Positions 1 through 37,649 of a DNA stretch of 45,405 nucleotides are shown here, in pieces. A program made the translations under genes and the position numbers. Each line of letters starts with the position of its first letter. The first letter of the stretch is position 1. The notes under the pieces are model-generated. The model was not told the DNA's origin and ran no database searches. It saw only the letters and a program-made list of their open reading frames with translations. The stretch covers positions 1 through 45,405 of the forward strand of contig JAGPDF010000035.1 of NCBI GenBank assembly GCA_018057705.1. Reading direction: 5' to 3'. The DNA comes from Thermoanaerobaculia bacterium (GTDB taxonomy: Bacteria > Acidobacteriota > Thermoanaerobaculia > Multivoradales > JAGPDF01).

Positions 1-777
1 TTCCGCCGCGACCTCGCCATCTATCTGCGCGCCCTCGCGACGCTCCTCGTCGCCCTCGTCGCCTACACCAACCTCAAGTGCCGCCTGCTGCTCTTCCATC
101 CCCAGCTCTTCGACCGCATCTTCTGGAATCTCGACGACCTGCTGCACATGGGCGGCGGCGATTTCGTCGCCTGGGTCACGAGTCTCCACTCGCCGCCGCG
201 CACCGACCTGCTCCAGAGCGTCTATTTCTATGCCTGGGCGGCGCTCGCCCTGCCCCTCGCCGTCGCCATGGCGCGCTCCGGCGCCGCGCTGGTTCGCCGG
301 GCGCTCGCCGCCCTGGCGCTGTGCTACATCGTGGGGGTCTTCGTCTATCTGGCGTTCCCGAGCCTCGGCCCGGCCCTCGTCGAGAGCGGGCGCTACGCCG
401 CGCTCTCCGGTTCGCACGCCTTCGAGCTGCAGCAGTCGATGCTCAAAGCGCTGCGCTATACCGTGCAGAACCCGCAGGCGCCCGCCGCACCGTTCTTCGG
501 GCTCGCCGCTTTCCCGAGTCTCCACCTCGCGACCACCGCGCTCGGCCTCATCGTCGCCTGGCGCGTCTGGCGGCCGCTCCTCGTCCTGCTCGTGCCGTGG
601 AACCTCGCCATCGCCGCGAGCGCCGTCTACTTCGGCTGGCACTACGCGCTCGACATCTACCCCGGCCTGGCGCTCGCCGCGCTCGGCTGGTGGGCGGCCG
701 GACGACTCCTGCCGTCGCCCGCTGCACCGGCCGCCCCCGCGCCCCCCGCCACTCCCGGCGCCGCCGGGATCGGCTGA
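1..777 (+). CDS. PAP2-family membrane phosphatase / phosphotransferase, 5' partial
   Basis: The frame is open from the first base of the window, so the N-terminus lies outside it; 258 residues are visible before the TGA. It is a polytopic membrane protein. The two halves of the PAP2 active site are visible: FPSLHLATTA around residues 171-180 and GWHYALDIYPG around 212-222, giving the catalytic His pair and Asp. The spacing and hydrophobic pattern resemble the PAP2_3 group (Aur1/IPC-synthase-like), which transfers phospho-head groups between lipids or dephosphorylates lipid phosphates at the outer face of the inner membrane. The C-terminus is an Ala/Pro-rich tail. It is convergent with the FkbH gene, with 143 bp between them and no clear terminator. 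A second PAP2 domain of the same type lies at 7167. The substrate cannot be told from sequence. Confidence 0.8.
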   Translation, partial: FRRDLAIYLRALATLLVALVAYTNLKCRLLLFHPQLFDRIFWNLDDLLHMGGGDFVAWVTSLHSPPRTDLLQSVYFYAWAALALPLAVAMARSGAALVRRALAALALCYIVGVFVYLAFPSLGPALVESGRYAALSGSHAFELQQSMLKALRYTVQNPQAPAAPFFGLAAFPSLHLATTALGLIVAWRVWRPLLVLLVPWNLAIAASAVYFGWHYALDIYPGLALAALGWWAAGRLLPSPAAPAAPAPPATPGAAGIG

Positions 778-5439: not shown

Positions 5440-6909
5440 TCAGCCCACGACGCGGGGGAGTGCATCCGCGAGGAATCGCAAGTGGTCGACGAGGCGCGTG
5501 TTGCGCATGTCCACGTAAAGCGTGGTGAGCAGGGCGAAGACGATCCAGACCCCGAGGATCGCCCGCCACTCCGCCAGCCGGCTCTTGGGCGCCTTGGCCC
5601 GGCCCATACGCCGGACCTGAGAGACGAAGATCGCCGACGCCAGGAGGAGGCAGTAGAGCGCGTGCCCCTGGGAGTCGACCAGGGTTCGCAGTAAACCGCG
5701 CTCGGCCAGCACATGCACATCGCGGAACAGATGGTAGACGAAGTTGCCGAAACCGGCCGCCGCGAGCGTCGCGACGAAGAGGGCGGTCTTCGGACGGCGC
5801 CGCGGGAGCGCGTAGAAGACCGGATAGAAGAAGCAGTCGACCAGAAGCTCCTTGAAGTAGTAATAGTAGCGATTGAAAAACTCCGAGACGCTCGTCGCGA
5901 GGAACGGCTTGTAGGTGTTGCGCCGGGCCTGGAAACCGGAAATCCGCGCGACCGCGATGAACTGATGGCCCCAGATCGAGAGCTTGAGTCCGGCGAGGGC
6001 CAACTCGAGGAACATCGCGCCCCAGTTGACCAGCCACGGGAACGGCTGACCGGCCACGCTGGCGCGAAATGCGATACCGAGCGGAGGTATCGGCAGCGAC
6101 AGCGGCAGCGTCGCTCCTCCCGGCAGCGGGCTGCCGAAAAAGAGCGCGCGCAGAAGGGCTGCCGCGACCGTCAGCAGAAGCGACCACCAGAGGAGCTTCA
6201 GCCCCTTCAGCTGGCTGATCGCCAGCGCCTCCGGATCCTTCGCCTCGATCAGGTCGACGTAAGCGGCGCCTTTCGGAAACGGCGTGTTCGTCGACCCCCA
6301 GAACGGGTGAAACAGACCGAGCTGCTCGACGAAGCCGCGCTGACTGTTGCGCCGAAGGTCGAGCAACGTGTAGGCGAAGAACCAGAGGTAGGTGCCGAAC
6401 GCGAGCGCGAACGCCCAGCCGGAGACCCAGATGAGTCCGTGCGACGGCGAGTGGAGCAGGAGCGCCAGGAGCGCCCCATGGAACGCGAGCAGCGCCCACA
6501 CCGGCTGGCGGGCAGGCCAGATCGCGGGTCGGCTCCGGAAGAGCCAGTGAACGAGGGCGCCGAGGAGCAGAACCGCCGCGAGGATGCGCAGCCGGAAGAC
6601 CCCGAAGTCGCCGAGCCCGACGCCTTCGTCCAGCTGCGGCCGCAGCGTGGCGAGGACCTGCCAGGGAACGTCGACATGCACTCCAGCCCAGTAGAGCGCC
6701 CCGAACAGCAGAATCTTGCGGCGATGCGCCGCGAAGAGCGTGACCAGGACGAGCACGATCGCCGTGTCGACGAACTGCGTCCCGCGGAGGCTCACGCGCA
6801 GAAGGAACAGGAAGAGCGCGACCAGGACGACGCGTCCCCAGGCGGCCTGGGCGAGCCGGATCACGACCGGGTTCTCGTCGATCGCGGGGACGAGTCGAAA
6901 TCGGCTCAT
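5440..6909 (-). CDS. MBOAT-like membrane O-acyltransferase
   Basis: 489 residues from ATG 6909; an open frame extends upstream but is Arg-rich and unlike a membrane protein N-terminus. There are about ten hydrophobic segments. The region at residues 318-395 follows the AlgI/DltB pattern: ARISGF, then SVSEFFNRYYYYF (341-352) in place of the usual SxxEFWRRWHIS, then FFYP, then GFGNFVYH (386-393) in place of GLWHG. The usual catalytic His positions therefore read Tyr and Asn, with one His (393) a few residues later. The family moves acyl groups across or within the inner membrane onto glycans, lipids or peptides. It is divergent from the PAP2 fusion gene and upstream of the FkbM and VOC genes. 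Membership is inferred from these blocks, and activity is not assured. Confidence 0.65.
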   Translation of the reverse strand: MSRFRLVPAIDENPVVIRLAQAAWGRVVLVALFLFLLRVSLRGTQFVDTAIVLVLVTLFAAHRRKILLFGALYWAGVHVDVPWQVLATLRPQLDEGVGLGDFGVFRLRILAAVLLLGALVHWLFRSRPAIWPARQPVWALLAFHGALLALLLHSPSHGLIWVSGWAFALAFGTYLWFFAYTLLDLRRNSQRGFVEQLGLFHPFWGSTNTPFPKGAAYVDLIEAKDPEALAISQLKGLKLLWWSLLLTVAAALLRALFFGSPLPGGATLPLSLPIPPLGIAFRASVAGQPFPWLVNWGAMFLELALAGLKLSIWGHQFIAVARISGFQARRNTYKPFLATSVSEFFNRYYYYFKELLVDCFFYPVFYALPRRRPKTALFVATLAAAGFGNFVYHLFRDVHVLAERGLLRTLVDSQGHALYCLLLASAIFVSQVRRMGRAKAPKSRLAEWRAILGVWIVFALLTTLYVDMRNTRLVDHLRFLADALPRVVG

Positions 6910-7148
6910 CGAGGTTCGAGTGGAGGCCAACGACTCGCCGGAGCGGGCTCGCCCGCGCGGCCGCGCGACATCGGGCTGCACTCGCTCGTGATCATCGGAA
7001 TAGGGCCGTCGGTTGCCTGTGGGCGATCTGGCTTCGACGCTATCACGGCGTCTCCGGCGGCGACGCGTCGGGCCGTCCGCCGCACGAGCCCCCTCGAGCA
7101 CCCGCCGCCACTGACGCTCGACCGGAGTCGAGCGCGAAGTGCGTGGAC

Positions 7149-7154
7149 TAGAAT
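7149..7154 (+). promoter_or_regulatory. TAGAAT -10-like box before the PAP2 fusion gene
   Basis: TAGAAT lies 12 nt before ATG 7167. There is no Shine-Dalgarno and no clear -35. If used, transcription would begin almost at the start codon. The same hexamer occurs before selA and before the toroid gene at 42608. Confidence 0.3.
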
Positions 7155-7166
7155 CCCCCGGTCCCC

Positions 7167-10100
7167 ATGTCATCCCGTCCCTCGCGCACGATCGAGATCG
7201 ACAAGGCGCTGATCGTCGGCGCGCTCGTCCTGCTCGTGACGCTGGGCTGGATCACCGGTGCGCCGGTCTTCGAGCCGTTCGGACAGGGCCGGCTGACCTA
7301 CATGACGGTGCTGGCCCTGCCGATCGTCGGCGCCCTGCTCCTGTTTCGACGTGCGTCGCCCGGCCTCCGCCATCTGGTGGGCAGCTGGTGGCCGGTGGTC
7401 GCCATACTGGCGGTCTACGAGAGCCTGAAGCACATGCACGCCAACAGGATCACGCAATGGCTCGGCATCGAACCGAAGGACGCGCTGATGCTGCGCATCG
7501 ACGAGGCCCTCTTCGGCAAGGCGCTGCCCTTGTGGATGGACTCGTGGACGGCGACCTGGTTCCAGGAGTTGATGACCTTCTGCTACATCTGGATCTACTA
7601 CCTTTGGCCGGTCGCGCTGCTGTCCGCCGCCTACCTCGCCCACCGCGACGACCTCTTTCGCAGACTCCGCCTCGGGCTCGTCTTCGGACTGCTCGGCGGG
7701 TACGTCCTCTACATCTTCGTCCCCGTCGCCGGTCCGCTCTATCTGATCGGCGACCGCTTCCAGCATCCGATCCCCGGCCACTCCCGGCTGGAGACCCTGT
7801 TCTTCGACGCCCTGCGGTTCAACTGGGACTGCTTCCCGAGTCTGCACACAGCCATTCCCTGGCTCCTGACGGTCTTGATCTGGAAGTGGCTGCCGCGTTG
7901 GGTGGTCTTCTTGTCGGCAGTCCTCGCGAGTGCCGTCACGCTCTCGACCGTCGCTCTCCGAATCCACTACGGCGTCGACCTCCTCGCCGCCTTCGTCTGG
8001 GTCGGAATCGTCTTCTACGCCGTTCAACGCGCCTCCCGGTCCGACTACGGTCGTCTGCGACTGCGCTTCGGAAGCGCGCGTCGGAGTGCCACGGCGAAAT
8101 CCTCGCCGGCCCGCGGCGCACTAGGCAGAGCGGCCGCGACCATCGGTCTCGTCTCCGGAGCGAGTCTCGTCGCCCTCCTCGTGCAGGAGCGCTGGTCGGA
8201 GCTCTGGGTCTCACGTCCACTGCTGGTCAGCGGAGTCTGCTTGGCGGGTGCGGCGTTCGGAGTGGCTCTGGGGCTGAGCTGGGCTTCGCGCCTGCGCCCG
8301 CGGTCGCCGAGCGTGAGCTCGTCGCGCATCGGCGCGCTCGCCTGCCTTGGGATAGCCGGAGGAATCGCTCTCCTCGGCTCACCGGTTCCGACGCTCGCCG
8401 TCGCCGACGGCTCCGTGCGGTCGATTGCCTGGACGATTCTGCTCGGCGTCGCCTTCGGCGTCGTGCTCGGTGAGGCGCGGAGCTTCGTACGGGAGCTGGG
8501 ACTGCGGCGCGACATCGAGATCGTCGCGCGCTGGTCGGCTCTCGGCGCGTCGGCAGGCGCCCTCTTCTTTCGGTCCGAACTCTTTCCGCGGCTGGGCTAC
8601 GGCGACTCGCTGCTGGTCGCGGCGCTACTCGCGGCGCTGGGCGCTTTCCTGGTGCTGCGCCGGGATATACCCGTTGCCGCCCTGGAGCCTGGGGTGCAAA
8701 GTGGGAGAGCGGATGGGCCGTGTCTCGTCCTGCTCGGCACCGCAGGCGCGATTACCGGCGCGTTGATCCCCGCCTGGACGTATCTCTACGGCGCCGCGCT
8801 GGGCGACTCATTCCTTGCGTTCGGCACCGTGCTGACTGCCGTCGCGCTGGCGGCCTGGATCGCGGGACCGCTGGCTCGCCGGGTGGTTGGAGCCAGTCGG
8901 GCCAGCGGGGTCGCCGGTAGGCCGGCGCCCGAGCGCGCCGCCGCCGGCTTGCTGGTACTCGGCGCGGTCGCGCTCTCCGCGACCTGCTTCCTCTGGGATC
9001 AAGCACCATTGCTCCTGGCCCGGGCCGCATCGAGGACCCAGTCGCTGGTCGCCGTCGATCGAGCCCGGGAAGTGGCGGTCGGTCTCCTGGCCTTCCTGCC
9101 GGCGCTCTTTCTCGTGAGCGCGCTCCGGGCGCTTTCCGGAAGCGACGCGGCGAAGAGCTCCGGCCGATCCGCCGCTCTCGTTCCAGCGAGCATCGCGCTC
9201 GGGAGCGCGCTGTTCGTCTCGGTCCTTTTCGAGCAGCTGGGCACGCGCGCCTCCCTCGCCTGGTTGGCGCTCTTCGGAGCCGCGGTCGGCACTGCCACTT
9301 TCCTTCGCGGACCCATCCGGAGGATGCATGCTGTCGCGGCTGCCCTGGCGATGCCGCTCCTCGGAATCGCTTTCGTGGCCTGGCAGACGTTGCCGTACGC
9401 CGCAGGAACCTCGATGGACATCGGCCGCCGTCTCTTTTCGCAGGCGAGCACCGGTCCGATCGTCGAGGATGCCGTGGCCGGTTTCGTCGCCAGGTTCGAA
9501 GCGCCTTCCGGAGCGGACCCCGAACGCTGGTCGGTAGTCGGCAACGGCCGCGTCCTGGCCCAGAACGCGGATCCTGCCGCGGCGCCGGCCGTGGAGCTGG
9601 CAAAGAGCGCGACGAGCTCCGTCCGCCGGGCGCTCGTCCTCGGGGCGAGCCCCGCGCTCGCCCGGGCCCTCGCCGACGCCGGCGTGGCAGATGTCGAAGT
9701 GGTCGAACCTTCGGCCGAGGCGCTCGATCTCGCGAACCCGCCCCATGGCTTGGGCGGGAAGACCGCGGACGTCGCAGCTTCGATTCCGACGAATGCCCGG
9801 GTCCGGCTGCGCTCCGCCAGGCCGGCCGATCTGGTGATCTCCCGCGTTCACGACTATTGGCTGGGTCTCTCCAGGGGGGAGCTCACCCGAGAGTTCTACG
9901 CCCTCGTCCGGGCGCGACTCGACGGGAATGGGGCCTTCGTCCAGGCGATCGACCTCGACGCCATGGGTCCGCGCGAGCTGCCATCGATCGTGGCAGCGAT
10001 CGCGGCGGAGTTCCGATCGGTGAGTCTCTGGATCGCCGACGGCAACCTCCTGGTCCTGGCTCTGCCGGAGGCCCGAAGCGGTGCGCGGGAGAGTCCGGCT

Positions 10101-10361
10101 TCCCTGGGTCCGCCCCTGCTGAGCCCCGAGCTGACCGCACTATGGCTGGCGGCGGAGGGACCGGAGGTGAGCAGCGACCGCAGTGGATCCCTCGAGCTCG
10201 GGAGCCGGAACTACCGACTACTGGGCAGCCTCGCGGAGAAGACCCCAGCAGCGCTGCGGGCGTCGATCGCGCGTCGCATGTTGCCCGCCGGAGCGGCGCT
10301 GCCCACCTCGTCCGGCGCACCCGCCTCCGCCGCGCCGCTCGCAGCGCCCGAGAACCCGTAA
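7167..10361 (+). CDS. PAP2 phosphatase fused to a polytopic membrane region and spermidine-synthase-like domain
   Basis: A 1064-residue protein in three parts. Residues 1-290 are a complete PAP2_3 domain with CFPSLHTAIP (222-231) and RIHYGVDLL (265-273). Residues about 310-755 form a long run of hydrophobic helices like the MFS-type half of bacterial fused MFS/spermidine synthases. Residues about 755-1000 are soluble and resemble a polyamine aminopropyltransferase: a beta-rich entry, then LVLGASPALARALADAGV near 822-840 followed by VEVVEPS. The canonical glycine-rich nucleotide loop is replaced by GASPA, so the SAM-type site is probably degenerate. The C-terminus is Ala/Pro-rich. The start is ATG 7167 without a Shine-Dalgarno. 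The combination suggests a lipid-head-group enzyme with a regulatory or transport half; function unknown. Confidence 0.75.
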   Translation: MSSRPSRTIEIDKALIVGALVLLVTLGWITGAPVFEPFGQGRLTYMTVLALPIVGALLLFRRASPGLRHLVGSWWPVVAILAVYESLKHMHANRITQWLGIEPKDALMLRIDEALFGKALPLWMDSWTATWFQELMTFCYIWIYYLWPVALLSAAYLAHRDDLFRRLRLGLVFGLLGGYVLYIFVPVAGPLYLIGDRFQHPIPGHSRLETLFFDALRFNWDCFPSLHTAIPWLLTVLIWKWLPRWVVFLSAVLASAVTLSTVALRIHYGVDLLAAFVWVGIVFYAVQRASRSDYGRLRLRFGSARRSATAKSSPARGALGRAAATIGLVSGASLVALLVQERWSELWVSRPLLVSGVCLAGAAFGVALGLSWASRLRPRSPSVSSSRIGALACLGIAGGIALLGSPVPTLAVADGSVRSIAWTILLGVAFGVVLGEARSFVRELGLRRDIEIVARWSALGASAGALFFRSELFPRLGYGDSLLVAALLAALGAFLVLRRDIPVAALEPGVQSGRADGPCLVLLGTAGAITGALIPAWTYLYGAALGDSFLAFGTVLTAVALAAWIAGPLARRVVGASRASGVAGRPAPERAAAGLLVLGAVALSATCFLWDQAPLLLARAASRTQSLVAVDRAREVAVGLLAFLPALFLVSALRALSGSDAAKSSGRSAALVPASIALGSALFVSVLFEQLGTRASLAWLALFGAAVGTATFLRGPIRRMHAVAAALAMPLLGIAFVAWQTLPYAAGTSMDIGRRLFSQASTGPIVEDAVAGFVARFEAPSGADPERWSVVGNGRVLAQNADPAAAPAVELAKSATSSVRRALVLGASPALARALADAGVADVEVVEPSAEALDLANPPHGLGGKTADVAASIPTNARVRLRSARPADLVISRVHDYWLGLSRGELTREFYALVRARLDGNGAFVQAIDLDAMGPRELPSIVAAIAAEFRSVSLWIADGNLLVLALPEARSGARESPASLGPPLLSPELTALWLAAEGPEVSSDRSGSLELGSRNYRLLGSLAEKTPAALRASIARRMLPAGAALPTSSGAPASAAPLAAPENP

Positions 10362-10403: not shown

Positions 10404-12413
10404 ATGCGGACGGCAAGAGAGGCAACTCCCGACAGCCCGCCGTTGCCGGTCGTCTTCGGCGCCGGACTACTCTACGCCGCACTGCTCTTCTGGGCCTGCG
10501 GCTTCCGGCTGGTGCCGGCGCCGCCGACGCCCAGCGCTTTCGTCGTCCTCGCCCTCCTCGCTCTCTTCCTGGGTCTCGCCCACGGCGCTCTGAGCGCCCT
10601 CGCCGCGACCCTGCTCTCCCGTCTCCCGGGCCTGCGTCGCTGGCCGCTGGGCATCGACTTTCTGGTGGCGCTCGGGCTCGGCGCTTTCTACGCCTGGCTC
10701 GCCCTCTCGCTCTGGAAGTTCGCCATCGCCCGCGCGCACCTGCGCTTCGAAGACCTCTGGTTCATCATCGGGAGCCTGCGCCAGTTGGCCGACGAAGCGA
10801 GCGCGCGGGAGCGACTCATGCTGTTCGCGACCCTCCTCGCCCCGGTCGTCTTCGCGCTCGCCCTGTTCGCCGGGTTCTCCGCGCTGCGCCGCGCGCGACG
10901 CCGGAGCGCGGCTGCAGCCACCGCGCCGGCCTCGATCCCGTCGCTCCTGCTGCTCGCCGGTATCGCGATCTTCGCCCTGGCTCTGCTCTGCTGGCGCTAC
11001 CCCTACGCGCGCACCGTCGCCGGGACGCTCGCGCCGGAGACCAGCTGGCTTGCCCGGCAGTGGTCCGGAGTCACGGCGCTCGCCCGGCTGACCGGCAACG
11101 CTCCGCCGCTCGCTTTCACGCCCGATCCGCAGCGCAGCGCGCGCATCGCCGACCCCCGGCCCTTCGCGCCTGCCGCCGGCTTCCAACGCGACAACGTCGT
11201 CATCGTGATGCTCGAGTCGGTGCCCTGGAGCCGGCTGTTCGGACCGCTCGCCCGGCCCGAGGCGACGCCGCGCATGAACGCTCTCGCCGCCGAGTCGATC
11301 GTCTTCGCGCGCACCTACGCCACCGCGACGCATTCCGACTACGCCCAGACCTCGATCCTCGCAGCTCTCCATCCGCGCAAGTTCGAGCGCCACGACTACT
11401 TCATCGACCTTGCCTATCCCCGCACCCTGATCTGGGATCTGCTGCGCCCGGCGGGCTACCGCACCGCCCTCTTCTCCTGCCAGAACGAGAGCTGGGGGAA
11501 CATGCAGGCTTTCCTGCGCACCCCGGGACTCGAGCTCTTCCGCCACTCTCCTGACTGGCCGAATGCCCCTCGGCGCGGCGAGGGCACCGAGTCGAAGGTC
11601 TTCGAGCCGACCCCCGTCGCGGCCTTCGGCGACTGGCTGCAGGAGGCGAAGACGGGCCCGTTCCTCGCCTACCTCAATTTCCAGGCGACGCACTATCCCT
11701 ATGTCCTTCCGCCCGGGACGACGCCGCTCTACGAGCCGGAAGCGATCGACTTCCCGACCACCTTCCTTTTCTACCCCGCCGACAAGATCCCGGTGATGGA
11801 GAACCGCTTCTACAACGCCCTGCACGTCGTGGACACCGCGGTCGGCGAGGTCGTGGACCGCCTCCGGGAGGTGGGCGCCTGGGAGCGCACGGTCCTCCTC
11901 GTGGTCTCCGACCACGGCGAGGCGTTCTACGAGCACGGCGTGCCGACCCACGGCACGATGCTCCTCGAGGAGCAGATCCGCACCGCGGCCTTCCTGCGGT
12001 TGCCGGGGGCCCCGCCGCGCGTCATGACCGAGCCGGTCTCGGTGCTCGACCTGGTACCGGCGGTGACGGAGCACCTCGGCTTCGCCCCGCACGGCAACTT
12101 CCAGGGACGCGCCGACATCCTCGCACCCGATTACAGCGCCCAGGGCCGCCCCCTCCTCTTCACCATCCAGGGCATCACCCAGGAGGACGCCGTCCTGCGC
12201 GACGACTGGAAGCTCCTCCTGAACCGCGACCGCCGCGAACGCGCCCTCTTCGACCTCGCGACCGACCCGCTGGAGCGCGAGAACCTCGCCGCCGCCGAAC
12301 CCGCGAGGCTCGCCGACCTCGAGCGCCAGCTCGACGCCCTGCTCCAGGAGCAGCTCGCCTACTACCGCGAGCGCGGTTGGGAGAGCGGCTGGTACCCGCC
12401 CAGGCTGCCGTGA
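10404..12413 (+). CDS. LtaS/sulfatase-type membrane phosphotransferase
   Basis: 669 residues: about five N-terminal transmembrane helices (to about residue 220), then an extracytoplasmic alkaline-phosphatase-superfamily domain. Metal and active-site motifs are visible: VIVMLESVPW near 266-275 (metal-binding Glu), ATHSDYAQTS near 308-317 (candidate Ser/Thr nucleophile) and SDHGEAFYEHG near 502-512 (Asp/His ligands). The layout matches lipoteichoic acid synthases, phosphoethanolamine transferases and periplasmic sulfatases. The C-terminal tail with LFDLATDPLERENLA is typical of sulfatases. It lies 42 bp after the PAP2 fusion gene. Likely roles are transfer of phosphoglycerol or phosphoethanolamine to a surface polymer, or sulfate ester cleavage. 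A TACACT box lies 8 nt before the ATG and there is no Shine-Dalgarno. Confidence 0.8.
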   Translation: MRTAREATPDSPPLPVVFGAGLLYAALLFWACGFRLVPAPPTPSAFVVLALLALFLGLAHGALSALAATLLSRLPGLRRWPLGIDFLVALGLGAFYAWLALSLWKFAIARAHLRFEDLWFIIGSLRQLADEASARERLMLFATLLAPVVFALALFAGFSALRRARRRSAAAATAPASIPSLLLLAGIAIFALALLCWRYPYARTVAGTLAPETSWLARQWSGVTALARLTGNAPPLAFTPDPQRSARIADPRPFAPAAGFQRDNVVIVMLESVPWSRLFGPLARPEATPRMNALAAESIVFARTYATATHSDYAQTSILAALHPRKFERHDYFIDLAYPRTLIWDLLRPAGYRTALFSCQNESWGNMQAFLRTPGLELFRHSPDWPNAPRRGEGTESKVFEPTPVAAFGDWLQEAKTGPFLAYLNFQATHYPYVLPPGTTPLYEPEAIDFPTTFLFYPADKIPVMENRFYNALHVVDTAVGEVVDRLREVGAWERTVLLVVSDHGEAFYEHGVPTHGTMLLEEQIRTAAFLRLPGAPPRVMTEPVSVLDLVPAVTEHLGFAPHGNFQGRADILAPDYSAQGRPLLFTIQGITQEDAVLRDDWKLLLNRDRRERALFDLATDPLERENLAAAEPARLADLERQLDALLQEQLAYYRERGWESGWYPPRLP

Positions 12414-15267: not shown

Positions 15268-17066
15268 GGGGACTCCGCAGGAAGGGGGAAGGCCGCATCG
15301 TCCGGAACCGCAGCGAGCGGTTGGCGGGTCCACGGCGTGTCGTACAGGGCAATCATCTCACCGCCCATGGTGATGTTGTCGCGAATCCCGACCGAGCGCA
15401 GCAGATGGAAGCGCTCCGGGTGCGCGGCGGGATAGGGAAACCAGTCCGGGAAGACGATGACGAAGTCCGGCCGGCGCTCCTCGAGGAGGTCGACCAGGAC
15501 CTCGCCGAAGCCGACTCCGTGGGCGGCCGCCGCCTTGCGCCGCGTCGTGACCTCGGGGGTCATCAGCCCCACGAGGTCGAGGATCCGGTTCGGCAGGAGG
15601 TACCGGAAGGCGCCGACGTCGTTGACTGCGAGCAGCGCGTCGGGGGAGAGCCGGGGTCCGAGCCAGCGCGCCAGGGCGACGTTGCTGTCGCGCACGTTGG
15701 CGCACGAGGTGAGGTAGCGGCCGAATCCGGAGGCGAGCGAGAAGAGCGCCGGGGCGACGAGCAGCAGAAGCAGCAGGGCGCCGGCGGGCAGGCGTCGCCC
15801 CCCGAACCCGACCGAGCGCCAACGGGCGAGCGGCAGTTGCGAGAGCGCCAGGAGGCCGAGCAGCACCACGCAGGGCAGCAGCGGGAAGAAGTAGCGCCCG
15901 AAGTTCCCGACCGCGACCTCCCTTCCCGACGAGAGCATCGCCGAGGCGAGCGGCAGAGCGAGCGTCCAGAGCGCGAGCAGCAGGCCACGGTCCCGCGGAC
16001 CGCCGAACCGGCGCACCGACTCGACGACGCCACCGAGCGCGAGCAGCGTCATCCAGGGCTGCGACGTGAAGAGGATCCCGAAGATCGCTTGCAGCAGGCG
16101 GCGATCGGGGAGGAGCCCCGGCCCGCCCGAGCTCTTGGCGGCGAAGGTGGTGGGCAGCAGCGAACCCGACATCTGGTGGAAGGCGAGGCCGACCGGGACG
16201 ACGACCAGCAGCGTCAGGAGCAGCCCCTGGAGAACCCCCGTCCAGTCGGCCCGCGACGGCAGCGCGAGGCGCAGGCCGGGCTCGCCCGCGGAGTCCCGCG
16301 ACGGGGCCGATGCGGCCTCTGCCTGCGATGCGGTCGACGCGACTGCCATCGGCAGCGGTCGCAGCAGGCGGTCGGCGGCGGCGAGGAGGGGCAGCAGCAG
16401 CCCCTCGGGGCGGGCAAGCGCCGCCAGGCCGAAGAGCAGAAACGAGAGCGGCGGCAGTGCCTTCTCCGATGGATCGGGCGGCTGGGCCGGCTCGGCGCGC
16501 TCGAGCAGGTGCCGGTTCATACCGGCGAGCATGAGCAGGACGAAAAGGTTCACCTCCATGCCCGAGATCGACGACCAGACGAGCCAGTCGGTCGCCGCCA
16601 CCAACCCGGCGGCTACTGTGGCGAGCGCCGGCGAAAAACCCAGCCGCCGGCCGACCGAATAGACCAGGAGCACGGAGGCCGTATGAGCCGCGACACCGGC
16701 GAGCTTGGTCCACAGAAGGAGCGAACCGGGAAGCGCTGCGAGGAGCCCGAGGAGCGCCGTCCAGAGCGGCGCGGTCGTGCCGGCGACGAGCTCTTGCGGG
16801 TTGAAGGCCAGCCCTTCGCCGTGCGCGAGGCTGCGCGCGAAGACGAGGTGGATCCAGCTGTCGTCGAGCGGGAACTGCCAGTCGCCATCGAAGAGCCAGG
16901 CCTCGGCAGCGAGAAAGGCGAGCGGCGGGAGGAGGGCGAGAAGCAGGAGAAAGGCGACTCTCCCGCGGCCCGGCCGGAAGCGACCGAACGCAGCAACGGG
17001 CAGGACGCCGGCAGAGCGACTCAAGACCGCGCCATGATAGCCGAGCCTTCTTCGTCGGCAGCCCAT
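15264..17066 (-). CDS. GT-C family membrane glycosyltransferase
   Basis: About 600 residues from ATG 17066, which has GGGGGA just upstream; a TTG start about 15 codons later is possible. The open frame continues to 18227 but overlaps the divergent peptidase gene there. Some ten transmembrane segments are seen, and the first periplasmic loop has FPLDDSWIHLVFARSLAHG (residues 65-83) with the paired Asp 68/69 of GT-C enzymes. The C-terminal extracytoplasmic part contains NDVGAFRYLLP and DLVGLMTPEV, common in bacterial ArnT-like and mannosyl-type transferases. It is the first gene of a coupled three-gene unit with DegT and the GT39/TPR protein. The donor is probably a polyprenyl-phosphate sugar. 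Confidence 0.8.
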   Translation of the reverse strand: MGCRRRRLGYHGAVLSRSAGVLPVAAFGRFRPGRGRVAFLLLLALLPPLAFLAAEAWLFDGDWQFPLDDSWIHLVFARSLAHGEGLAFNPQELVAGTTAPLWTALLGLLAALPGSLLLWTKLAGVAAHTASVLLVYSVGRRLGFSPALATVAAGLVAATDWLVWSSISGMEVNLFVLLMLAGMNRHLLERAEPAQPPDPSEKALPPLSFLLFGLAALARPEGLLLPLLAAADRLLRPLPMAVASTASQAEAASAPSRDSAGEPGLRLALPSRADWTGVLQGLLLTLLVVVPVGLAFHQMSGSLLPTTFAAKSSGGPGLLPDRRLLQAIFGILFTSQPWMTLLALGGVVESVRRFGGPRDRGLLLALWTLALPLASAMLSSGREVAVGNFGRYFFPLLPCVVLLGLLALSQLPLARWRSVGFGGRRLPAGALLLLLLVAPALFSLASGFGRYLTSCANVRDSNVALARWLGPRLSPDALLAVNDVGAFRYLLPNRILDLVGLMTPEVTTRRKAAAAHGVGFGEVLVDLLEERRPDFVIVFPDWFPYPAAHPERFHLLRSVGIRDNITMGGEMIALYDTPWTRQPLAAVPDDAAFPLPAESP

Positions 17067-17147
17067 AGGGTCCCCCGCGATACCGCCGAGGTCTCCAGCA
17101 GATCCCCCGAAGCTCCCCGGAGCTCGGATGCTAGAGTCGATTTTCCG

Positions 17148-18608
17148 ATGCAAAAGGCCGCGCCGACCCCCTCCGAGCGCCTGGTTCGCAACAGCGCTCG
17201 CGCGGCGCTCTACCTCGCGCTCCTCGCGACCGGTCTCGCGGTCAAAGGCCTGCTGCTCCTCGCCCATCCGCCGGTGCCGGCGGAGATGCGCCGGATCGAC
17301 GAGCTTCAGCGGCAGTGGAGCGGCGTCGACTTCCTGAAGCTCCCCGAGGTGCAACTCCTGCGCGAGTACATCGCCATCGACACCAGCGAGCCGGACGCCA
17401 ACGAGCTCCCGGGCGCCGAGTTCCTCGCCGGCCAGCTCGCCGCCGCCGGCCTCGCCCCGCACGTCGAACGGCTGGCCGGCGGTCGCGCCAACGTCTGGGC
17501 GTTCGTCGAGGGCGAGGATCCGCGGGCGATCGTGCTCGCCGGCCATATCGACGTCGAACCGGCGCGGGCTTCCGAAGGCTGGAAGTACCCGCCGTTCGGC
17601 GGCGTCATCGACGGCCCCTGGATGTACGGCCGCGGCATCTACGACATGAAGAGCCTGACGATCGCCCAGCTGCTCGCGACGATCGATGTCGCCCGCCGGG
17701 CCGCGGCGACCGGCAGGAAGCCGAAGCGGTCGGTCCTCTTTCTCGCCACCTCCGGAGAGGAGGTCGGCAGCGAGACCGGCACGCGCTGGATCCTGCGCGC
17801 CCATCCCGAGCTCGTCGCCCGGATGGGGGTCGTGCTCACCGAGGGCGGCGTCGTCGAGGCGACCTCGGGCGACGAGATCAAGTACTGGGGGATCGAGTTC
17901 GCGCAGAAGCGCTTCACCGAGATCGTTTTTTGCAGCGCCGACGCCTCGAAGCTCGGCGCCCTGCGCGCGGCCATCCTGGAGCGCGATGCCTCCGACCCCG
18001 TGACCCCGGTCTCGGAGCCGGTCCAGCTCTTCCTCTCGCACTACGGGCCGACGCGCGGCCTCGGCTCGTTCCAGGCCTGGCTCGCGGATGCGGCGGCGAC
18101 CCTGCGCGACCCGCGCGCCTTCGACCGCCTGACGCCGTTCATGAAAGCGCTCTTCCGCAACGAGCTCGTGCCGTTTCCGGTCGAGCCCGATCCGGCCGGC
18201 GGCTACCGGATGCGGCTCTTCGTCCATCTCCTGCCGGAGGCCGACCGCGCAAGTGTCCTCGCCGATCTCCTGCCGGAGTCACTGACCCTGGGCACGACCT
18301 ACCATATCGGCGAGGATCTCGGAGCGCGGGCGCCCTCGCCGGTCGACTCGGCCGACTTCCGGGTCCTGCAGCGGGTCATCGAGGAGCACTACCCCGGAAC
18401 CGTCGCCGGGCCCTACTTCCTCCCCTGGGCGGCGACCGATTCGCGCTTCTACCGCGACGCTGGAATCCCGAGTTACGGCTTTTCGCCCTTCCTGATCGCC
18501 GTCACCGATACCATGGGGATCGCGCGCGCCAACGAGCGCATGCCGATGCCGGGGTTCGTCCAGGGGGTGGCGATCTACCGGCAGGTGGTGAAAGAGCTGG
18601 CCGAGTAA
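17148..18608 (+). CDS. M20-family peptidase paralogue with degenerate active site
   Basis: 486 residues with one N-terminal transmembrane helix (about 18-40), so membrane-anchored. The M20 core is clear: His133 in LAGHIDVEP, Asp166 in GRGIYDMKS, Glu204/Glu205 in SGEEVGSETG and Glu232 in LTEGG. Two conserved features are missing. The lid-domain GxxGHAS loop is absent: compared with the paralogue at 19473 about 13 residues are deleted after QKRFTEIVF. The last metal ligand, His in HxPDER, is Ala459 in IARANER. The domain is otherwise full length and in frame, so this is not a simple pseudogene. It may be monometallic, a binding protein, or act on unusual substrates. TAGAGT lies 10 nt before the ATG and there is no Shine-Dalgarno. 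Confidence 0.85.
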   Translation: MQKAAPTPSERLVRNSARAALYLALLATGLAVKGLLLLAHPPVPAEMRRIDELQRQWSGVDFLKLPEVQLLREYIAIDTSEPDANELPGAEFLAGQLAAAGLAPHVERLAGGRANVWAFVEGEDPRAIVLAGHIDVEPARASEGWKYPPFGGVIDGPWMYGRGIYDMKSLTIAQLLATIDVARRAAATGRKPKRSVLFLATSGEEVGSETGTRWILRAHPELVARMGVVLTEGGVVEATSGDEIKYWGIEFAQKRFTEIVFCSADASKLGALRAAILERDASDPVTPVSEPVQLFLSHYGPTRGLGSFQAWLADAAATLRDPRAFDRLTPFMKALFRNELVPFPVEPDPAGGYRMRLFVHLLPEADRASVLADLLPESLTLGTTYHIGEDLGARAPSPVDSADFRVLQRVIEEHYPGTVAGPYFLPWAATDSRFYRDAGIPSYGFSPFLIAVTDTMGIARANERMPMPGFVQGVAIYRQVVKELAE

Positions 18609-18628
18609 CACTCTTTGCCGCGAATGGG

Positions 18629-18646
18629 TGACAGTTTTTGTCGACA
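18629..18646 (+). promoter_or_regulatory. Candidate activator site upstream of the pilin promoter
   Basis: TGACA, a 5-nt spacer, then TGTCGACA form an imperfect inverted repeat about 60 bp upstream of the sigma-54-type element at 18705. TGTC/GACA half-sites are known for PilR in Pseudomonas, so this is a plausible enhancer for the PilR-like protein encoded at 34088. Assignment is by position and half-site only. Confidence 0.35.
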
Positions 18647-18704
18647 TTGCGGGAGGGTCGGATAGAAAGCACCTGTTTCCAATCACTTGCGAGGGCGTCC
18701 TCTT

Positions 18705-18720
18705 TGGCACCGGCCCTGCA
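18705..18720 (+). promoter_or_regulatory. Sigma-54-type -24/-12 promoter of the pilin gene
   Basis: TTGGCAC, then CGGCC, then CTGCA, with the GG (18706-18707) and GC (18718-18719) exactly 10 nt apart as sigma-54 requires. Transcription should begin near 18731, giving a leader of about 58 nt before ATG 18789. Pilin genes are classic PilR/sigma-54 targets, and a sigma-54 activator is encoded in this window. Confidence 0.7.
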
Positions 18721-18788
18721 ATCTCCTCTTGACGGACAGCCTTCGGAATTCACCGTTGGCAGCAGTTCCCAAGGCACGAGGAGAGAAC

Positions 18789-19349
18789 ATGATTCAGAAA
18801 CTCCGGAATCGCCAGCGGGGCTTCACACTGATCGAGCTTCTGATCGTGGTGGCCATCATCGGTATCATCGCCGCCATCCTGATCCCGAACTTGATCGACG
18901 CCCTGCAGAAGGCGAAGCAGAAGCGCACCATGGCCGACATGCGCAACGTCGGCACGGCCTGGCTCTCGTGGGTCACGGACGTCGTCTCCGGCGCCGCGGC
19001 CGGCCAGGGTGTCACGACCTGGTCCGGTACTGATTACCTCACCATCACGCATTCGGAACTCTTCCAGACCCTCCATCCGTCGACGACCTTCTTCTACCTG
19101 AACGAGCTGCCGAAGAGGGACGGCTGGAAGAACAGCTACGCCTACGGCTATACCCAGAATCCGCTCGGCTCGCAGGTCATCGCGATCGGCAGCCGCGGAC
19201 GGGACGGCGCCACGAATGCGGCCACTCCCCTGGCCGCTAGCATCACCATTGGACCGTTCACCCCGACCAAGTACGACGAGGACATCATCTGGGCCGACGG
19301 CTTCTTCGTTCGCTGGCCCGGCGGCGCCGACACCGGCGGCGGCAGCTGA
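18789..19349 (+). CDS. Type IV pilin / GspG-like major pseudopilin
   Basis: 186 residues from ATG 18789, preceded by GAGGAGAG. The class III signal is RQRG cut before FTLIELLIV (Gly11/Phe12), with Glu at mature position 5. The C-terminal half contains KRDGWKNSYAYGYTQ and a later GSRGRDGATN, the pattern of the GspG pseudopilin family, where this loop often binds calcium. It is therefore closer in fold to a T2SS major pseudopilin than to a classic PilA, although its regulatory context is that of a pilus gene. It stands alone between a sigma-54-type promoter and a strong terminator, consistent with high expression as a major subunit. It should be processed by the prepilin peptidase at 23413. Confidence 0.9.
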   Translation: MIQKLRNRQRGFTLIELLIVVAIIGIIAAILIPNLIDALQKAKQKRTMADMRNVGTAWLSWVTDVVSGAAAGQGVTTWSGTDYLTITHSELFQTLHPSTTFFYLNELPKRDGWKNSYAYGYTQNPLGSQVIAIGSRGRDGATNAATPLAASITIGPFTPTKYDEDIIWADGFFVRWPGGADTGGGS

Positions 19350-19376
19350 CCTTCGCATTTCACAACTGAATTCCCC

Positions 19377-19409
19377 GAACGCCGCGGTCCTCCGCGGCGT
19401 TCGTCTTTT
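19377..19409 (+). terminator. Rho-independent terminator after the pilin gene
   Basis: A perfect 11-bp stem (GAACGCCGCGG pairing with CCGCGGCGTTC) with a 4-nt loop is followed by GTCTTTT. It lies 27 bp after the pilin stop codon and isolates the pilin transcript from the following peptidase operon. Confidence 0.9.
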
Positions 19410-19472
19410 GGGGCGACTCCCCTCGGGCTCCTCTCGTCCAGCTGCTGCCGGCTTCTATAGACTGCCTTCACT

Positions 19473-20954
19473 TTGCGCCCGGTACCGAGCTCCTGGCTGG
19501 CCTTCCTGCTGCTTGCCGCCACAGGTGTCGGCGCCGCTCCGGCGGCGAGCGATCGCGCGGTCCGCTCTCCGGCCGCGTCCCTCCTCGCCGCCTATCTCGC
19601 CGTCGACACGACGAATCCTCCCGGCAACGAGCGCGCCGGAGCCGAGCTCCTCGCCCGGACGCTCGCCGAAGCCGGCATCGAGTCACAGCTGCTGGTCTCG
19701 CCGCGCGGCCGGGTGAGTCTGCACGCGCGTCTCGAAGCGACCACCGCAGGAACCCGCGCGGGCGCGCTCCTCCTCCTGCACCACATCGACACGGTGCCGG
19801 CGGGACCCGGGTGGCGACACCCGGCGCACGGCGGCGAAGTGCATGCGGGCGAGCTCTGGGGGCGCGGCGCGATCGACGCCAAAGGGCTCGGCGTCGCCCA
19901 CCTGATGGCGTTCCTCGAGCTCGCGCGCTCGCCGCAGCCGCGCCGCCGTGCGGTCGTCTTTCTCGCCGTCGCCGACGAGGAGGCGGGCGGCGGCGAAGGC
20001 ACCGGCTGGCTGATCGAGTCGCATCCCGAGCTCTTCGCGGACGCCGCCGTGGTGTTGAACGAAGGCGGCGTCAACAAGGCGGTCGCGGGCCGGGCGCTCT
20101 TCTGGGGCATCGAGGTCGACCAGAAACGGCCGCTCTGGCTCGAGGTCGCGGCGACCGGCCGCCCCGGCCACGCCTCGGCCGCGAACCCCGAGAGCGCCAC
20201 GCACCGCCTCGTCGCCGGGCTCGCCCGCCTGGTGGCGGCGCCGCGACCGCGGCGGGTCACCGCGGCGGCCGCCGACTTCATCACCGCGCTCGCCCGTTTC
20301 GACCCGCAGGCGCGGGGTGCGCTCGCCGAAGTACGCGCCCTCGGGGCGCTGCGCGCGGCCGGGGGTCCGGGAGAGACGGCAGATGCGGATCCGGCGGGAG
20401 CCGGCGCGGCGCAGCCCCTCTCCCTGCCCGGCTTCGAGAGCCTGTTGACCGACACCCTGCAAGTCACCACCCTCGCCGGCTCCGAACGGATCAACGTCGT
20501 CGCCGGCGAAGCGCGCGCCGGCATCGACGTCCGGCTCCTGCCGGACACCGACGAGAAGGCGTTCGTCGGCGAGGTCGAGCGGATCCTCGGTCCCGGGTTC
20601 ACAGTGAACGTTCGCCTCGGCTCGAAGGCCACCCCTCCCTCCTCTTCGACCAGTGCCGACTACCGCACCCTCGCCGCGGCGCTCGCTGCGCCGGCGCCCA
20701 GCGCCCAGCCTGCGCCGGTTCCCGTCGTGCCGGCCTTCATCCCGGCGTTCACCGACTCGCGTTTCTTTCGCGCCCGCGGGATTGCGGCTTACGGTCTGCA
20801 GCCGTTTGCGCTCGACGGCCTGCTCCTGCGCAGCATCCATGCACCGGACGAGCGCATTCCGCTCACCGTCCTCGACCGCGGCGTCGAGACCATGACCCGC
20901 GTGCTGCGCGCGCTGGCCTCCGCGCCGCCGGCCGCCGACCCCGCGCTCCCATGA
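19473..20954 (+). CDS. M20-family metallopeptidase, secreted
   Basis: 493 residues from TTG 19473. Residues 1-25 look like a signal peptide ending in GAAPAA. The zinc site is complete: His104 in LLHHIDTVPA, Asp135 in GRGAIDAKG, Glu169/Glu170 in ADEEAGGG, Glu197 in LNEGG and His456 in IHAPDERIP. The lid-domain His233 sits in TGRPGHASAANP. It resembles carboxypeptidase-S/PM20D1-like enzymes that hydrolyse peptides or N-acyl amino acids. The paralogue at 17148 shares flanking sequence such as FWGIE and QKR but lacks key residues. No Shine-Dalgarno is seen; TATAGA lies 11 nt upstream. It overlaps the YfhO-like gene by 4 bp and heads an operon that includes prepilin peptidase and PilS. Confidence 0.88.
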   Translation: MRPVPSSWLAFLLLAATGVGAAPAASDRAVRSPAASLLAAYLAVDTTNPPGNERAGAELLARTLAEAGIESQLLVSPRGRVSLHARLEATTAGTRAGALLLLHHIDTVPAGPGWRHPAHGGEVHAGELWGRGAIDAKGLGVAHLMAFLELARSPQPRRRAVVFLAVADEEAGGGEGTGWLIESHPELFADAAVVLNEGGVNKAVAGRALFWGIEVDQKRPLWLEVAATGRPGHASAANPESATHRLVAGLARLVAAPRPRRVTAAAADFITALARFDPQARGALAEVRALGALRAAGGPGETADADPAGAGAAQPLSLPGFESLLTDTLQVTTLAGSERINVVAGEARAGIDVRLLPDTDEKAFVGEVERILGPGFTVNVRLGSKATPPSSSTSADYRTLAAALAAPAPSAQPAPVPVVPAFIPAFTDSRFFRARGIAAYGLQPFALDGLLLRSIHAPDERIPLTVLDRGVETMTRVLRALASAPPAADPALP

Positions 20955-26820: not shown

Positions 26821-28122
26821 ATGCCCTCGAATCCGCAGAACTCCCGGCAGGCCGGTTTCTCCCTCATCGAGCTCCTGATCGGCATGCTGATCGCGGTCGA
26901 GATTCTCGTCGCCGCGCTCACCATTTTCGACGTCCACAACCGAATGGCGCGGGTCCAGCTGCAGATCACCGACATGCAACAGTCGCTCCGCGTCGCGCAA
27001 TACGACATGGTGCGCACTACCCGCATGGCCGGGCGTGGCGGGCTGCCTGCCGAATTTCGCGTCGACAACGACGACATCTCCGTGCCCTGGCTGCGCGGAC
27101 TCGCGGTCGAGGTGCGCGATAACGTCCTCGAAGGCGGTGACGATCAGGTCGCGCTCGGCATCGACGAACCGGTGGCCCAGCCCGGCACCGACATCCTCAC
27201 CGTACGCGGCTGCCTCTCGGGTCTCCTGTTCCAGATGGACCCGACCGATCCGACCGACTTCACCGCCACGACCCTCACCATCAACCGGGATCTCCCCAAC
27301 GGCCGTTCGCAGGATCTCGCGCAGCTCCTCGAGCCGGGTTTCTCGAGCCCGATGCTGCTCCAAAGCTCGGTGAGCCGCGGCCAGTACGTGGTCGCCGAGG
27401 TCGCGAGCGTCGCAGGAAACGCGACGAGCGTGGTCTTGACCATCACCTTCGCGTCGACGCTCTCGCCGCCCAATCCGCTCGTCGTCGCCCTCCCGGCGGG
27501 ATTCGTTCCCGGCTTCGCCTGCGCGCTCGAGGAGTACCGCTACTACGTGCGGCCGACGAATATCGCCGACGCGAACGGCGATATCCAGCTCAGCCCGAAG
27601 CTCGCCCGGGCGCGGATGATCCCGGGCACGGAGCTCCCCCATGACGAGGACGACGCCAATCTCTCGCTCGACTTGGCCGACGAGATCTTCGACCTCCAGG
27701 TCGCGCTCGGCTTCGACACTGATTACGACTCCGCCGGCAGCGGCGTCGGCTCGTTCGACGACGACGTCGATTCCCTGGGCGTCGACGACGTCTTCTACGA
27801 GGGTGTCGACGACGATGCCCGCTCTACCGACGACTGGCTCGGCAACTCGAGCTCGGACAACCCGGCTGCGACGCAGTACCGGGTGAACGCCGCGATCGCG
27901 GCGCGCCCGGTGCGGCTCTACTACGTCCGCATCTCCACCCTCGGCCGAACGGCGCGGCGCGATGCGAAGTATGCCGCCCCGGACTTCGATCCCGTGGCCG
28001 GCGAGGACTTCATCGAGAACAACAACTACGACGTTGATCCGGCGAGCTACTTCAAGACCCCGGAGAACCGCCAGTTCCGACATCGGCTCCTGCGGACCGT
28101 GGTCGACCTGCGCAACATTTGA
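26821..28122 (+). CDS. pilW: PilW-like minor prepilin
   Basis: 433 residues, with GAGGAG upstream. The prepilin site is RQAG before FSLIELLIGMLIAVEILVA, with Glu17 as mature Glu5. The following QLQITDMQQSLRVAQYDMVRTTRMAGRGG helix is typical of PilW. At 433 residues it is longer than most PilW proteins. The extra length includes an Asp-rich stretch at about 273-345 (for example FDDDVDSLGVDDVFYEGVDD) that could bind calcium. It probably forms part of the tip complex with PilV, PilX and PilY1. Confidence 0.88.
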   Translation: MPSNPQNSRQAGFSLIELLIGMLIAVEILVAALTIFDVHNRMARVQLQITDMQQSLRVAQYDMVRTTRMAGRGGLPAEFRVDNDDISVPWLRGLAVEVRDNVLEGGDDQVALGIDEPVAQPGTDILTVRGCLSGLLFQMDPTDPTDFTATTLTINRDLPNGRSQDLAQLLEPGFSSPMLLQSSVSRGQYVVAEVASVAGNATSVVLTITFASTLSPPNPLVVALPAGFVPGFACALEEYRYYVRPTNIADANGDIQLSPKLARARMIPGTELPHDEDDANLSLDLADEIFDLQVALGFDTDYDSAGSGVGSFDDDVDSLGVDDVFYEGVDDDARSTDDWLGNSSSDNPAATQYRVNAAIAARPVRLYYVRISTLGRTARRDAKYAAPDFDPVAGEDFIENNNYDVDPASYFKTPENRQFRHRLLRTVVDLRNI

Positions 28123-28805: not shown

Positions 28806-31800
28806 ATGAAGATCCGAACCTCGAAGCTCCGATTCTCGCTCGCCCTCGCGGGAACGCTCGCTGCGACCTTGACGGTGACCGGCATGCCGCTGTCCGCCGA
28901 CGATCGCGACATCCTTCGCGAGTCGACGACCAAGCCCTACCTCTTCGTCATCCTCGACACCTCGGGCTCGATGAACTGGGCGCCGAGGTGCACCGCGGCG
29001 GATGTCGCGGACGGCGACTGCACCTATCTCTGCCCGACCGGCGACTGTGCGGTGCCTCGCGACGGCGACGACCCGGCGTCGAAGTTCCGCCAGTCCAAGG
29101 AAGCGCTCTACGAGGTGTTGAAGGAGGTCGACGACATCGACCTCGGCTTCGCCACCTACAACTCCGACGATCTCGGAGTGACCAACAAGCACTGGCTCTA
29201 TAAGGTCATCACCGGGGAGCCTCAGATCACTCTCGAGTCCGGGGCGGGATACCCCCTGCACGGCACGGACGAGGTCTTCGGACCGGCGATTGCGTGCGAC
29301 CGCGGCGATGGCGACGACAATGAGATGGGTTGCTTCGCGACCAGCGATCGCGCCGCAGATACCACAGACATCTGGGAGATGACCAAGGTCCGGCGGCTGC
29401 CGAAGTTCGGGGTCAATCCCTCGGCCGCGACCACTCCGGTGAGCTTCTACATTCGCAACGCCAATCAGGTCTACTACGTCACCTACAGCGGCGCGACCCA
29501 GGCCTACGACAGCGAGATCCTGGTGCACGTGCGCGTGGACCGCTGCACCGGCACCCCGACGAACGATCCTTCGAACGGCTGCAACGCCGCCAGCGAGCGC
29601 ACCCTGCAGGGCCAACTGGACATCCGGTACTCCCTGGTCGGCGACTTCATCATGTGGGACTTCAACGTCCGGCGAACCCCGGTCGTCGGATCCTCTGGCA
29701 ACGGCTATTTCAACGCGACGTTTTCGACTTCGGGCAACACTTGCACCGGCCTCGACCCCAATTCGGACACCGGCTCCGACGATTACCTCGGAGGGAACTT
29801 GAAGCAGCTCACCGGCCCGCCGAGCAATCCGGCCGCCTACTACAACCCCACGGGTACGGCGAACGACTGGCGCTTCGAGTACGGCGACTTCGTGCCGCTG
29901 TCGTGGACGCTGAGCAACAAGGACCAGCTCCTGAATCGCCTGGCGCCGCGGCTGAACGGCGGCGATCCGGCGACCGACCCGGAAGCCTTCGGAAACGCCA
30001 CCTATCTGAAAGATCTTCGGGACGGCGCAGAGGCGTTCCTTCGCGTCAAGGACCTCTCCTACAAGCCGCTGATTCCGAGCGGCTCGACGCCCCTGGGGAA
30101 CTCGCTGAGGAGCTTCCGCAACTGGTTCAAGGGCTGCGACGTCAGCAACAGCGCCTGCAACACCTCCACCGGATGGGACGACTTCGCGGCGGCCAACGAC
30201 CCTTCGTGGGGCTGTCGACGGAAGTTCATTCTCCTCCTGACGGACGGAGACGAGACCTGCGGCGGCGCTCCCTGTGCCTATGCCGACATCCTCGATGACA
30301 CAGAAGACGGCAATGGCGACGGCGTCTCGACCTATGTCGTCGCCTTCGGCGTGCCGACCGGAACGAATACCCTCAACTGCATGGCGGCCGATGGCGGAAC
30401 CACCGCGCCGATCCTGCCGCAAAACAAGGAGCAGCTCGTGGAGGCCCTGAAGGGCATTTTGAGTCAGATCCGCGAGGAGGCCTCCGCCTTCGCCTCCGCA
30501 GCCGTGCCGCAGGTGCAGGCCAACGCCACCGACAAGATCTTCCTGTCGAGCTTCACGCCACTGGGCGATGCCGGCTTCTGGGCCGGCCGTATGGACTCCT
30601 TCCTCAAGCCGCTGCCGCTCGACGATCTGGGGCGTCCCGATCGCTCGATCCTCTGCGACTCCGACACCAAGGCGAGCTGCTTCCTCTGGGATGCCGGCGA
30701 TGTGCAGGAGGGCCACCAGGGTGGTGCCGGGACGTACGCCCCCCAGGGACTCCTGCTCCAGGCGCCGCATCCGGACGATGTCGACGCCGTCCCGCCGTTC
30801 GACGCCGGCGAGCTCCAGCTCGGAACGGGCGCCGACGAACGCCGCGTCGTTTACACGCAGTACTCCGCGCCGGGCAACCGCAAGCTGTTCACCTACCCCA
30901 CGACGGCCGCCGAGAAGTACGACCTTTGGGACGGCTTCGAGATCGGTTACGTCGTCGGCAACTCCGCCTCGGAGACGGCGGCGGACGAACGCGCGAATAC
31001 CGTCATCACCCAGGTGCTGCTCGAGAAGGAAGGGTCGGTCGAGGTCGGCACTGTCACCACGCCGGTCACCTACCTGCTCGGTGACATCTTCCACGCCGAT
31101 CCACTGGTGATCAACAAGCCTTCGAACTTCACCTACTACACGAGCGATCCCTACCAGAACAAGGCGCTCTGCGGCGTGGCTACGGATCCGAACCGCTCGC
31201 CCCCGACCTCGTACAAGTGGTTCGCCGACCGCAACGTCTGCCGCCGCACTCTGCTGCTCACGGCATCGAACGACGGCCAGTTGCACGCCTTCGATGCCGG
31301 GATCTTCCGCGATCCGCCGTCCGGCAGTGCCGAGTGCCTCCTGCCGGCGAAGGACCTCGACGGCGATGGCACCGCCGAGACCGACGAGTTCAGCGACGGC
31401 ATCGTGGACTACGACGAAGACGACGCCGTCGAATCGGCGACAGAGCACGTCCTCGACGGCGCCTACGACAACGGCACCGGGCGCGAGATCTTCTCGTTCA
31501 TTCCGCGGGCGATGCTCGAGCCGGTTCGAACCCTGGTGGAAGAGCAGGATCGCAACAAGGGACCCTGGGGGATCGACGGCAGCCCCCGCGTCGATGACTT
31601 CTTCATCGACCCGCAGGCCGCCGAGAACGGCTCGACGACCTGCGCCGACCGCGAATGGCGGACCGTGCTCATCGGCGGCTATCGCGAAGGCGGACCGGGA
31701 TACTACGCCCTCGACGTCACGCAGCCCGACACGCTCGACGACGAGAACGTGCCCCAGCCCACCGCCGGCTACACGCCTTCCTGCTTCGACGGCGGCGCCG

Positions 31801-36870: not shown

Positions 36871-36884
36871 CGGTCGTTCCGCCG

Positions 36885-36890
36885 ATTCTA
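36885..36890 (-). promoter_or_regulatory. TAGAAT -10-like box before selA
   Basis: On the minus strand TAGAAT lies 14 nt before the selA ATG. It sits inside the 33-bp divergent gap and touches the AGGAGA ribosome binding site of the opposite gene. No -35 is evident. Confidence 0.3.
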
Positions 36891-36903
36891 GGAGATCCGG
36901 CCC

Positions 36904-37605: not shown

Positions 37606-37649
37606 TCGAATCGACGCCCGAGCCAACCGTTTCCTGAAAGGACTCGCCC

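Follow-up and report, generated by a model that had tools for sequence, protein, structure and literature searches.

We report that a single reading frame in the window, by which we mean the whole 45,405-nucleotide stretch analysed here (contig C35 of an uncultured Acidobacteriota genome of 5.08 Mb in 177 contigs, 96% complete), encodes a three-part fusion protein, P0001, in which an Aur1-type PAP2_3 module with an intact active site is followed by a 12-helix MFS fold and by a spermidine-synthase-like (SpdSyn-like) domain that has lost its nucleotide motifs. This architecture is rare rather than unique: the earlier note counted none with an N-terminal PAP2 enzyme among the known fused MFS/spermidine-synthase proteins, and the same build is present in five other genomes. 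Tentatively, and with somewhat less than even confidence, we read P0001 as an Aur1-type enzyme of lipid head groups that is anchored to an MFS translocator and whose SpdSyn-like domain is dead. The features of the window on which this reading draws are as follows.

1..777, + strand: second PAP2_3 gene, truncated at the left end of the contig (ortholog comparison with G001, a genome of the window's genus)
7167..10361, + strand: PAP2_3-MFS-SpdSyn-like fusion protein P0001, 1064 aa (frame, profiles, model)
7188..8039, + strand: Aur1/IPC-synthase-type PAP2_3 module, residues 8-291 (profile, fold, invariant residues)
8040..8093, + strand: Arg-rich linker, predicted cytoplasmic (charge count)
8094..9317, + strand: 12-helix MFS fold, residues about 310-717 (VIA Z, positive-inside pattern)
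9318..9377, + strand: additional helix 13 at residues 718-737, predicted to take the C-terminal domain outside (model, hydrophobic segment)
9444..10091, + strand: degenerate SpdSyn-like domain, residues about 760-975 (Foldseek 1uir, NF037959)
9642..9656, + strand: GASPA replacing the Gly-rich nucleotide loop, residues 826-830 (alignment with 36 relatives)
10404..12413, + strand: membrane-anchored sulfatase/alkaline-phosphatase-superfamily protein, just downstream of the fused gene (PF00884, 1.1e-31)

The frame at 7167-10361 (+) is open across 1064 codons and occurs once in the genome. By itself this is weak evidence, because spurious frames are common at the window's 70% GC (they reach 1653 aa), and we looked to composition and homology for support. 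Third-codon-position GC (GC3) stays at 0.80-0.89 through all parts of P0001, with 0.89 in the PAP2 part and 0.80-0.83 in the later parts. A profile of relatives built without P0001 matches residues 423-968 in this frame (3e-31; 8e-17 for the SpdSyn part and 2e-8 for the second MFS half) and has no match in any other frame, while for residues about 300-423 (the first MFS helices), which are not significant by sequence, the support comes from the structure model alone. One fused relative, P0005, is collinear with P0001 over nearly its full length (E 5e-106), which makes a frameshift unlikely, and on the homology seen across the frame we rejected a frameshift or assembly artefact as the source of the fused gene. 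An AlphaFold2 model of P0001 (68-row alignment, pLDDT 84, pTM 0.74) resolves three folds. The three-part observation of the earlier note, an uninterrupted frame joining a PAP2_3 domain, an MFS-like membrane region and a domain like polyamine aminopropyltransferases, is thereby confirmed. PHROGs gave no match, and a PAP2-MFS-SpdSyn fusion was not described in the open papers covered by our literature search.

The five further three-part PAP2_3/MFS/SpdSyn proteins are each encoded in one frame: P0002 (L073/L097), P0003 (L098), P0004 (L099), P0005 (L100) and P0006 (L101), with Acidobacteriota, Aminicenantes and two Myxococcota among the hosts. Their PAP2_3 and Spermine_synth matches all lie above the Pfam cut-offs; the five have intact SpdSyn motifs and score 82-124 bits with NF037959 (fused MFS/spermidine synthase; cut-off 40). 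Across 396 sampled Acidobacteriota genomes both parts occur in one frame only in the genomes G000 and G094; the 149 genomes of the window's class yield G000 alone, among the matches listed; and full-length matches in 379 Myxococcota genomes are confined to G499 and G501. The window's genus and family gave no close ortholog of the fused protein, and a first scan of genome contigs with P0001 alone as query gave no match. Unfused MFS-SpdSyn relatives are widespread. L011 and L017, two fusion-like candidates with PAP2 in long frames, turned out to be standalone genes within long open frames. Separately, a 1240-codon frame at L131 (2764-6483) carries PAP2 motifs at its C-terminal end and may be merely an over-long open frame.

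The middle region adopts a 12-helix MFS fold in the predicted model, where residues 313-715 match SLC37A4/G6PT1 with VIA Z 33.8 over 354 aligned residues. The Pfam MFS profile has no match in P0001; P0002 and P0004 score above its cut-off. Known fused MFS/spermidine synthases (NF037959; PRK03612) share with P0001 the order of MFS core, helix 13 and SpdSyn fold, from which P0001 differs in its additional N-terminal PAP2 module and its lost nucleotide motifs. The 13th hydrophobic helix is present in 37/37 rows of the alignment (mean hydropathy between 1.3 and 2.7; L177 and L187 have the weakest segments), and a positive-inside pattern likewise holds in 37/37, Lys/Arg being denser in the loops that are cytoplasmic if the MFS N-terminus is inside, although in a few rows, L049 and L054 among them, the difference is small. 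From this charge pattern and the conserved helix 13, the SpdSyn-like domain is predicted to lie outside the cytoplasm, on the same side as the PAP2 site. An extracytoplasmic nucleotide-binding domain in the intact relatives is hard to explain and counts against the reading we prefer.

The C-terminal domain of P0001 has a SpdSyn fold (Foldseek best match 1uir, 3.4e-5), and NF037959 matches its residues 830-957 at 3.2e-5 with 22.8 bits, below the cut-off of 40. As the earlier note had read, GASPA stands in place of the glycine-rich nucleotide loop; all 36 compared relatives have a Gly-rich loop there. Among the 37 rows only P0001 lacks both this loop and the D-G-R (D-x-R) motif, a few of the rows varying at single motif positions. 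The relatives keep the loop, the strand-2 acid and D-G-R, and of these P0001 keeps the acidic strand-2 residue.

This degeneration brings in the main rival to our reading, namely that only the PAP2 module works in P0001 and that the MFS-SpdSyn part is a decaying remnant whose frame survives by chance or because this part anchors the protein in the membrane. Identity between P0001 and P0005 is 53% in PAP2 as against 24-27% in MFS and 21% in SpdSyn, a pattern that is reversed between P0002 and P0005 (26% in PAP2, 51% in SpdSyn). The end branch of P0001 has a length of 6.79 on the MFS-SpdSyn tree (median 0.59) versus 0.62 on the PAP2 tree; the lower GC3 beyond the PAP2 part points the same way, and a standalone PAP2_3 protein of the same clade exists (L171). 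The MFS half of P0001 is also fast-evolving, suggesting that transport may be impaired. However, the frame runs on for about 750 more codons that show a coding pattern, the MFS and SpdSyn folds are confident in the model (though aided by the alignment of relatives), and the strand-2 acid and helix 13 are retained. We consider decay on this scale a serious alternative that is nonetheless somewhat unlikely.

The enzyme of the reading we prefer, a head-group transferase tethered to a translocator, is the N-terminal module. PAP2_3 (PF14378) matches residues 110-284 (6.4e-14, 52.6 bits against a curated cut-off of 27), and His227, His267 and Asp271, the His-His-Asp active site, are invariant across 51 PAP2_3 sequences, in agreement with the intact site described by the earlier note. 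When the module was modelled separately (pLDDT 88), its closest structure matches over residues 5-302 were IPC synthase (9vj4, Z 19.1) and Aur1 (9ivc, Z 18.8), followed by LpxE (Z 13.9), with matches to PgpB-type enzymes as well; phmmer with the PAP2 part against PDB sequences gave a chance match only. The fold shared with Aur1/inositol phosphorylceramide (IPC) synthase takes in the whole module including its first helices, and both also have PSLH and HYxxxD, the active-site motifs typical of PAP2_3, the difference being that the module of P0001 is fused to MFS and SpdSyn-like domains. Lipid head-group chemistry, one half of the coupling that the earlier note had envisaged, is thus supported by this fold. 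A lipid-phosphate phosphatase (PgpB/LpxE-like) with a fused transporter and no transferase activity would use chemistry common to the PAP2 superfamily and would be consistent with the LpxE and PgpB-type matches, but Aur1/IPC synthase matches more strongly and over the N-terminal helices as well, and we regard a phosphatase as improbable.

As to which head group a transferase of this kind would handle, BT_1522 of Bacteroides was picked by homology to yeast Aur1 and assigned to phosphoinositol dihydroceramide synthesis (PMC9246714); we liken it to the P0001 module through the Aur1 relationship. Inositol-phosphate synthase (PF01658) has no match in the 96% complete window genome, which suggests that phosphoinositol is not the obvious donor and that another head group is more likely, inositol uptake being possible.

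The other half of the earlier note's idea, a polyamine-like ligand, is not supported. P0001 shares the fold of SpeE (PDB 1uir, 6qmm, 1inl), in which an Asp of the glycine loop leaves the carboxyl group of SAM no room, so that dcSAM is selected (PMC1282579). At this position the fused relatives have Thr (GxGTG in all five) and P0001 has GASPA, and the catalytic Asp pair of SpeE is replaced by Glu/Ser in the fused relatives (E-x-S-S-x-W) and by SRVHDYW in P0001. The one AdoMet decarboxylase family searched, PF02675, was detected in 0/6 fusion genomes, the window genome included (four of the six have no completeness figure), as against 4/4 searched genomes with unfused relatives. Polyamine synthesis by the fused proteins is unlikely because PF02675 was not detected in these six genomes. 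Despite the clear fold and the motifs retained in the relatives, a polyamine-linked protein, in which a polyamine-like ligand bound or made by the SpdSyn-like domain would be coupled to lipid chemistry, is very improbable given these substitutions, the missing decarboxylase and the predicted location of the domain outside the cytoplasm. For the three-part proteins, that predicted location and the lack of a detected AdoMet decarboxylase argue against an annotation as 'spermidine synthase'.

The association of the two gene types extends beyond the fused proteins. Unfused PAP2_3 and MFS-SpdSyn genes adjoin in G370 and G494 (both convergent), at L105, L152 and L115, and in G001; in G478 they are divergent and about 600 bases apart or less. 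Several of these pairs, being convergent or divergent, are not operons, and where the genes are split over frames (the L152 MFS-SpdSyn gene and the L115 pair) a broken fusion is possible. Seven of 72 scanned MFS-SpdSyn loci have a PAP2_3 match, a count without a chance rate that includes two fused loci (the window and P0002) and G370 twice, leaving four distinct unfused cases. In G001 the PAP2_3 gene is a 79% ortholog of the window gene at 1-777 and is preceded by an unfused MFS-SpdSyn gene, of which a 78% ortholog ends contig C80 of the window genome. Judging from these G001 orthologs, the left edge of the window probably continues into C80, and the fused gene would then have an unfused MFS-SpdSyn/PAP2_3 pair about 7 kb upstream.

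Both domain trees bear on the origin of the fusion. On the MFS-SpdSyn tree P0005 falls within a set of unfused proteins, most of them from the window's class, and P0002, P0003, P0004 and P0006 make up a separate group; placing all fused proteins in a single clade is rejected (p 4e-54) in a test that left out the window row, its branch being too long, and we are unsure where the window's own MFS-SpdSyn part belongs. The PAP2 tree puts the window's module together with P0005 and the standalone gene L171, and here a single clade is rejected less strongly (p 0.027). The trees are quick ones, with groups named only after the first trees were seen. As the fused proteins do not form one clade on either tree, at least two fusion events would be the simplest reading; a single fusion with later splits keeps a residual probability.

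The gene setting fits surface lipid or glycan modification but points to no particular product. Among the neighbours in the window are two methyltransferases, one of them FkbM-type, an FkbH-like gene, a PMT-TPR protein and a DegT aminotransferase, and orthologs of the last two (52% and 63%, respectively) lie beside an unfused MFS-SpdSyn gene in G004, a genome of the same family. A CDP-alcohol phosphatidyltransferase gene follows the fused gene at L101. A link between the sulfatase-superfamily neighbour and the fused protein is putative. A conserved sulfatase neighbour was rejected: the window and L100 have an alkaline-phosphatase-like gene nearby (the L100 protein has no Pfam or NCBIfam match), and at the other fused loci the neighbours that we tested included none.

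Several further observations concern genes near these loci. At L121 (1169-5140) a standalone cluster comprises a PAP2_3 gene, an LtaS-like sulfatase-superfamily protein (assigned by eye) and a second PAP2_3 gene. In the window, 5443-7173 (-) encodes a membrane protein of 577 aa that matches no Pfam or NCBIfam family and whose called start overlaps that of the fused gene on the opposite strand. Two consecutive M20-peptidase frames occupy 15321-20951; the first matches only in residues 739-1091 of 1095, and its start is probably wrong, since the match is confined to the C-terminal third. The intervals 18687-19346, 26821-28119, 28806-33185 and 34091-35455 contain pilin-like genes bearing N-methylation motifs, a PilY1-like protein of 1460 aa and a sigma-54 response regulator. 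A SelA-like L-seryl-tRNA selenium transferase (35467-37626) suggests selenocysteine use in the window genome.

Taking P0001 as a tethered head-group enzyme, the Aur1-type PAP2_3 module would most likely act at the periplasmic face, where it would transfer a phosphate-linked head group on a membrane lipid, and the MFS domain would most likely bring either that lipid or the donor of the head group through the membrane to the PAP2 site. The SpdSyn-like domain would sit on the same outer side, with a nucleoside-type pocket kept in the intact relatives; in P0001, where the pocket is lost, it may be a structural or regulatory part at most. Computation shows the three folds, the intact PAP2 site, the lost SpdSyn motifs, the repeated fusion and the neighbouring positions of the two gene types, and from these we infer the topology, the cargo and direction of transport, a transferase in place of a phosphatase, and the class of substrate. 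Genes that are fused repeatedly in the same order usually serve one process. That the same three-part build appears to have arisen at least twice suggests that its parts probably cooperate on surface lipids and not in polyamine making. More broadly, it is conceivable, if unlikely, that throughout the MFS/SpdSyn family an outside SpdSyn-like domain, an Aur1-type phosphotransferase and an MFS flippase make up one lipid head-group export-and-transfer machine, of which P0001 would be a natural version with that domain catalytically dead. The fusions link the MFS/spermidine-synthase fusion family, which is uncharacterised and has several copies in many of the genomes considered here, to Aur1-type lipid head-group enzymes, and this link gives the family a testable job.
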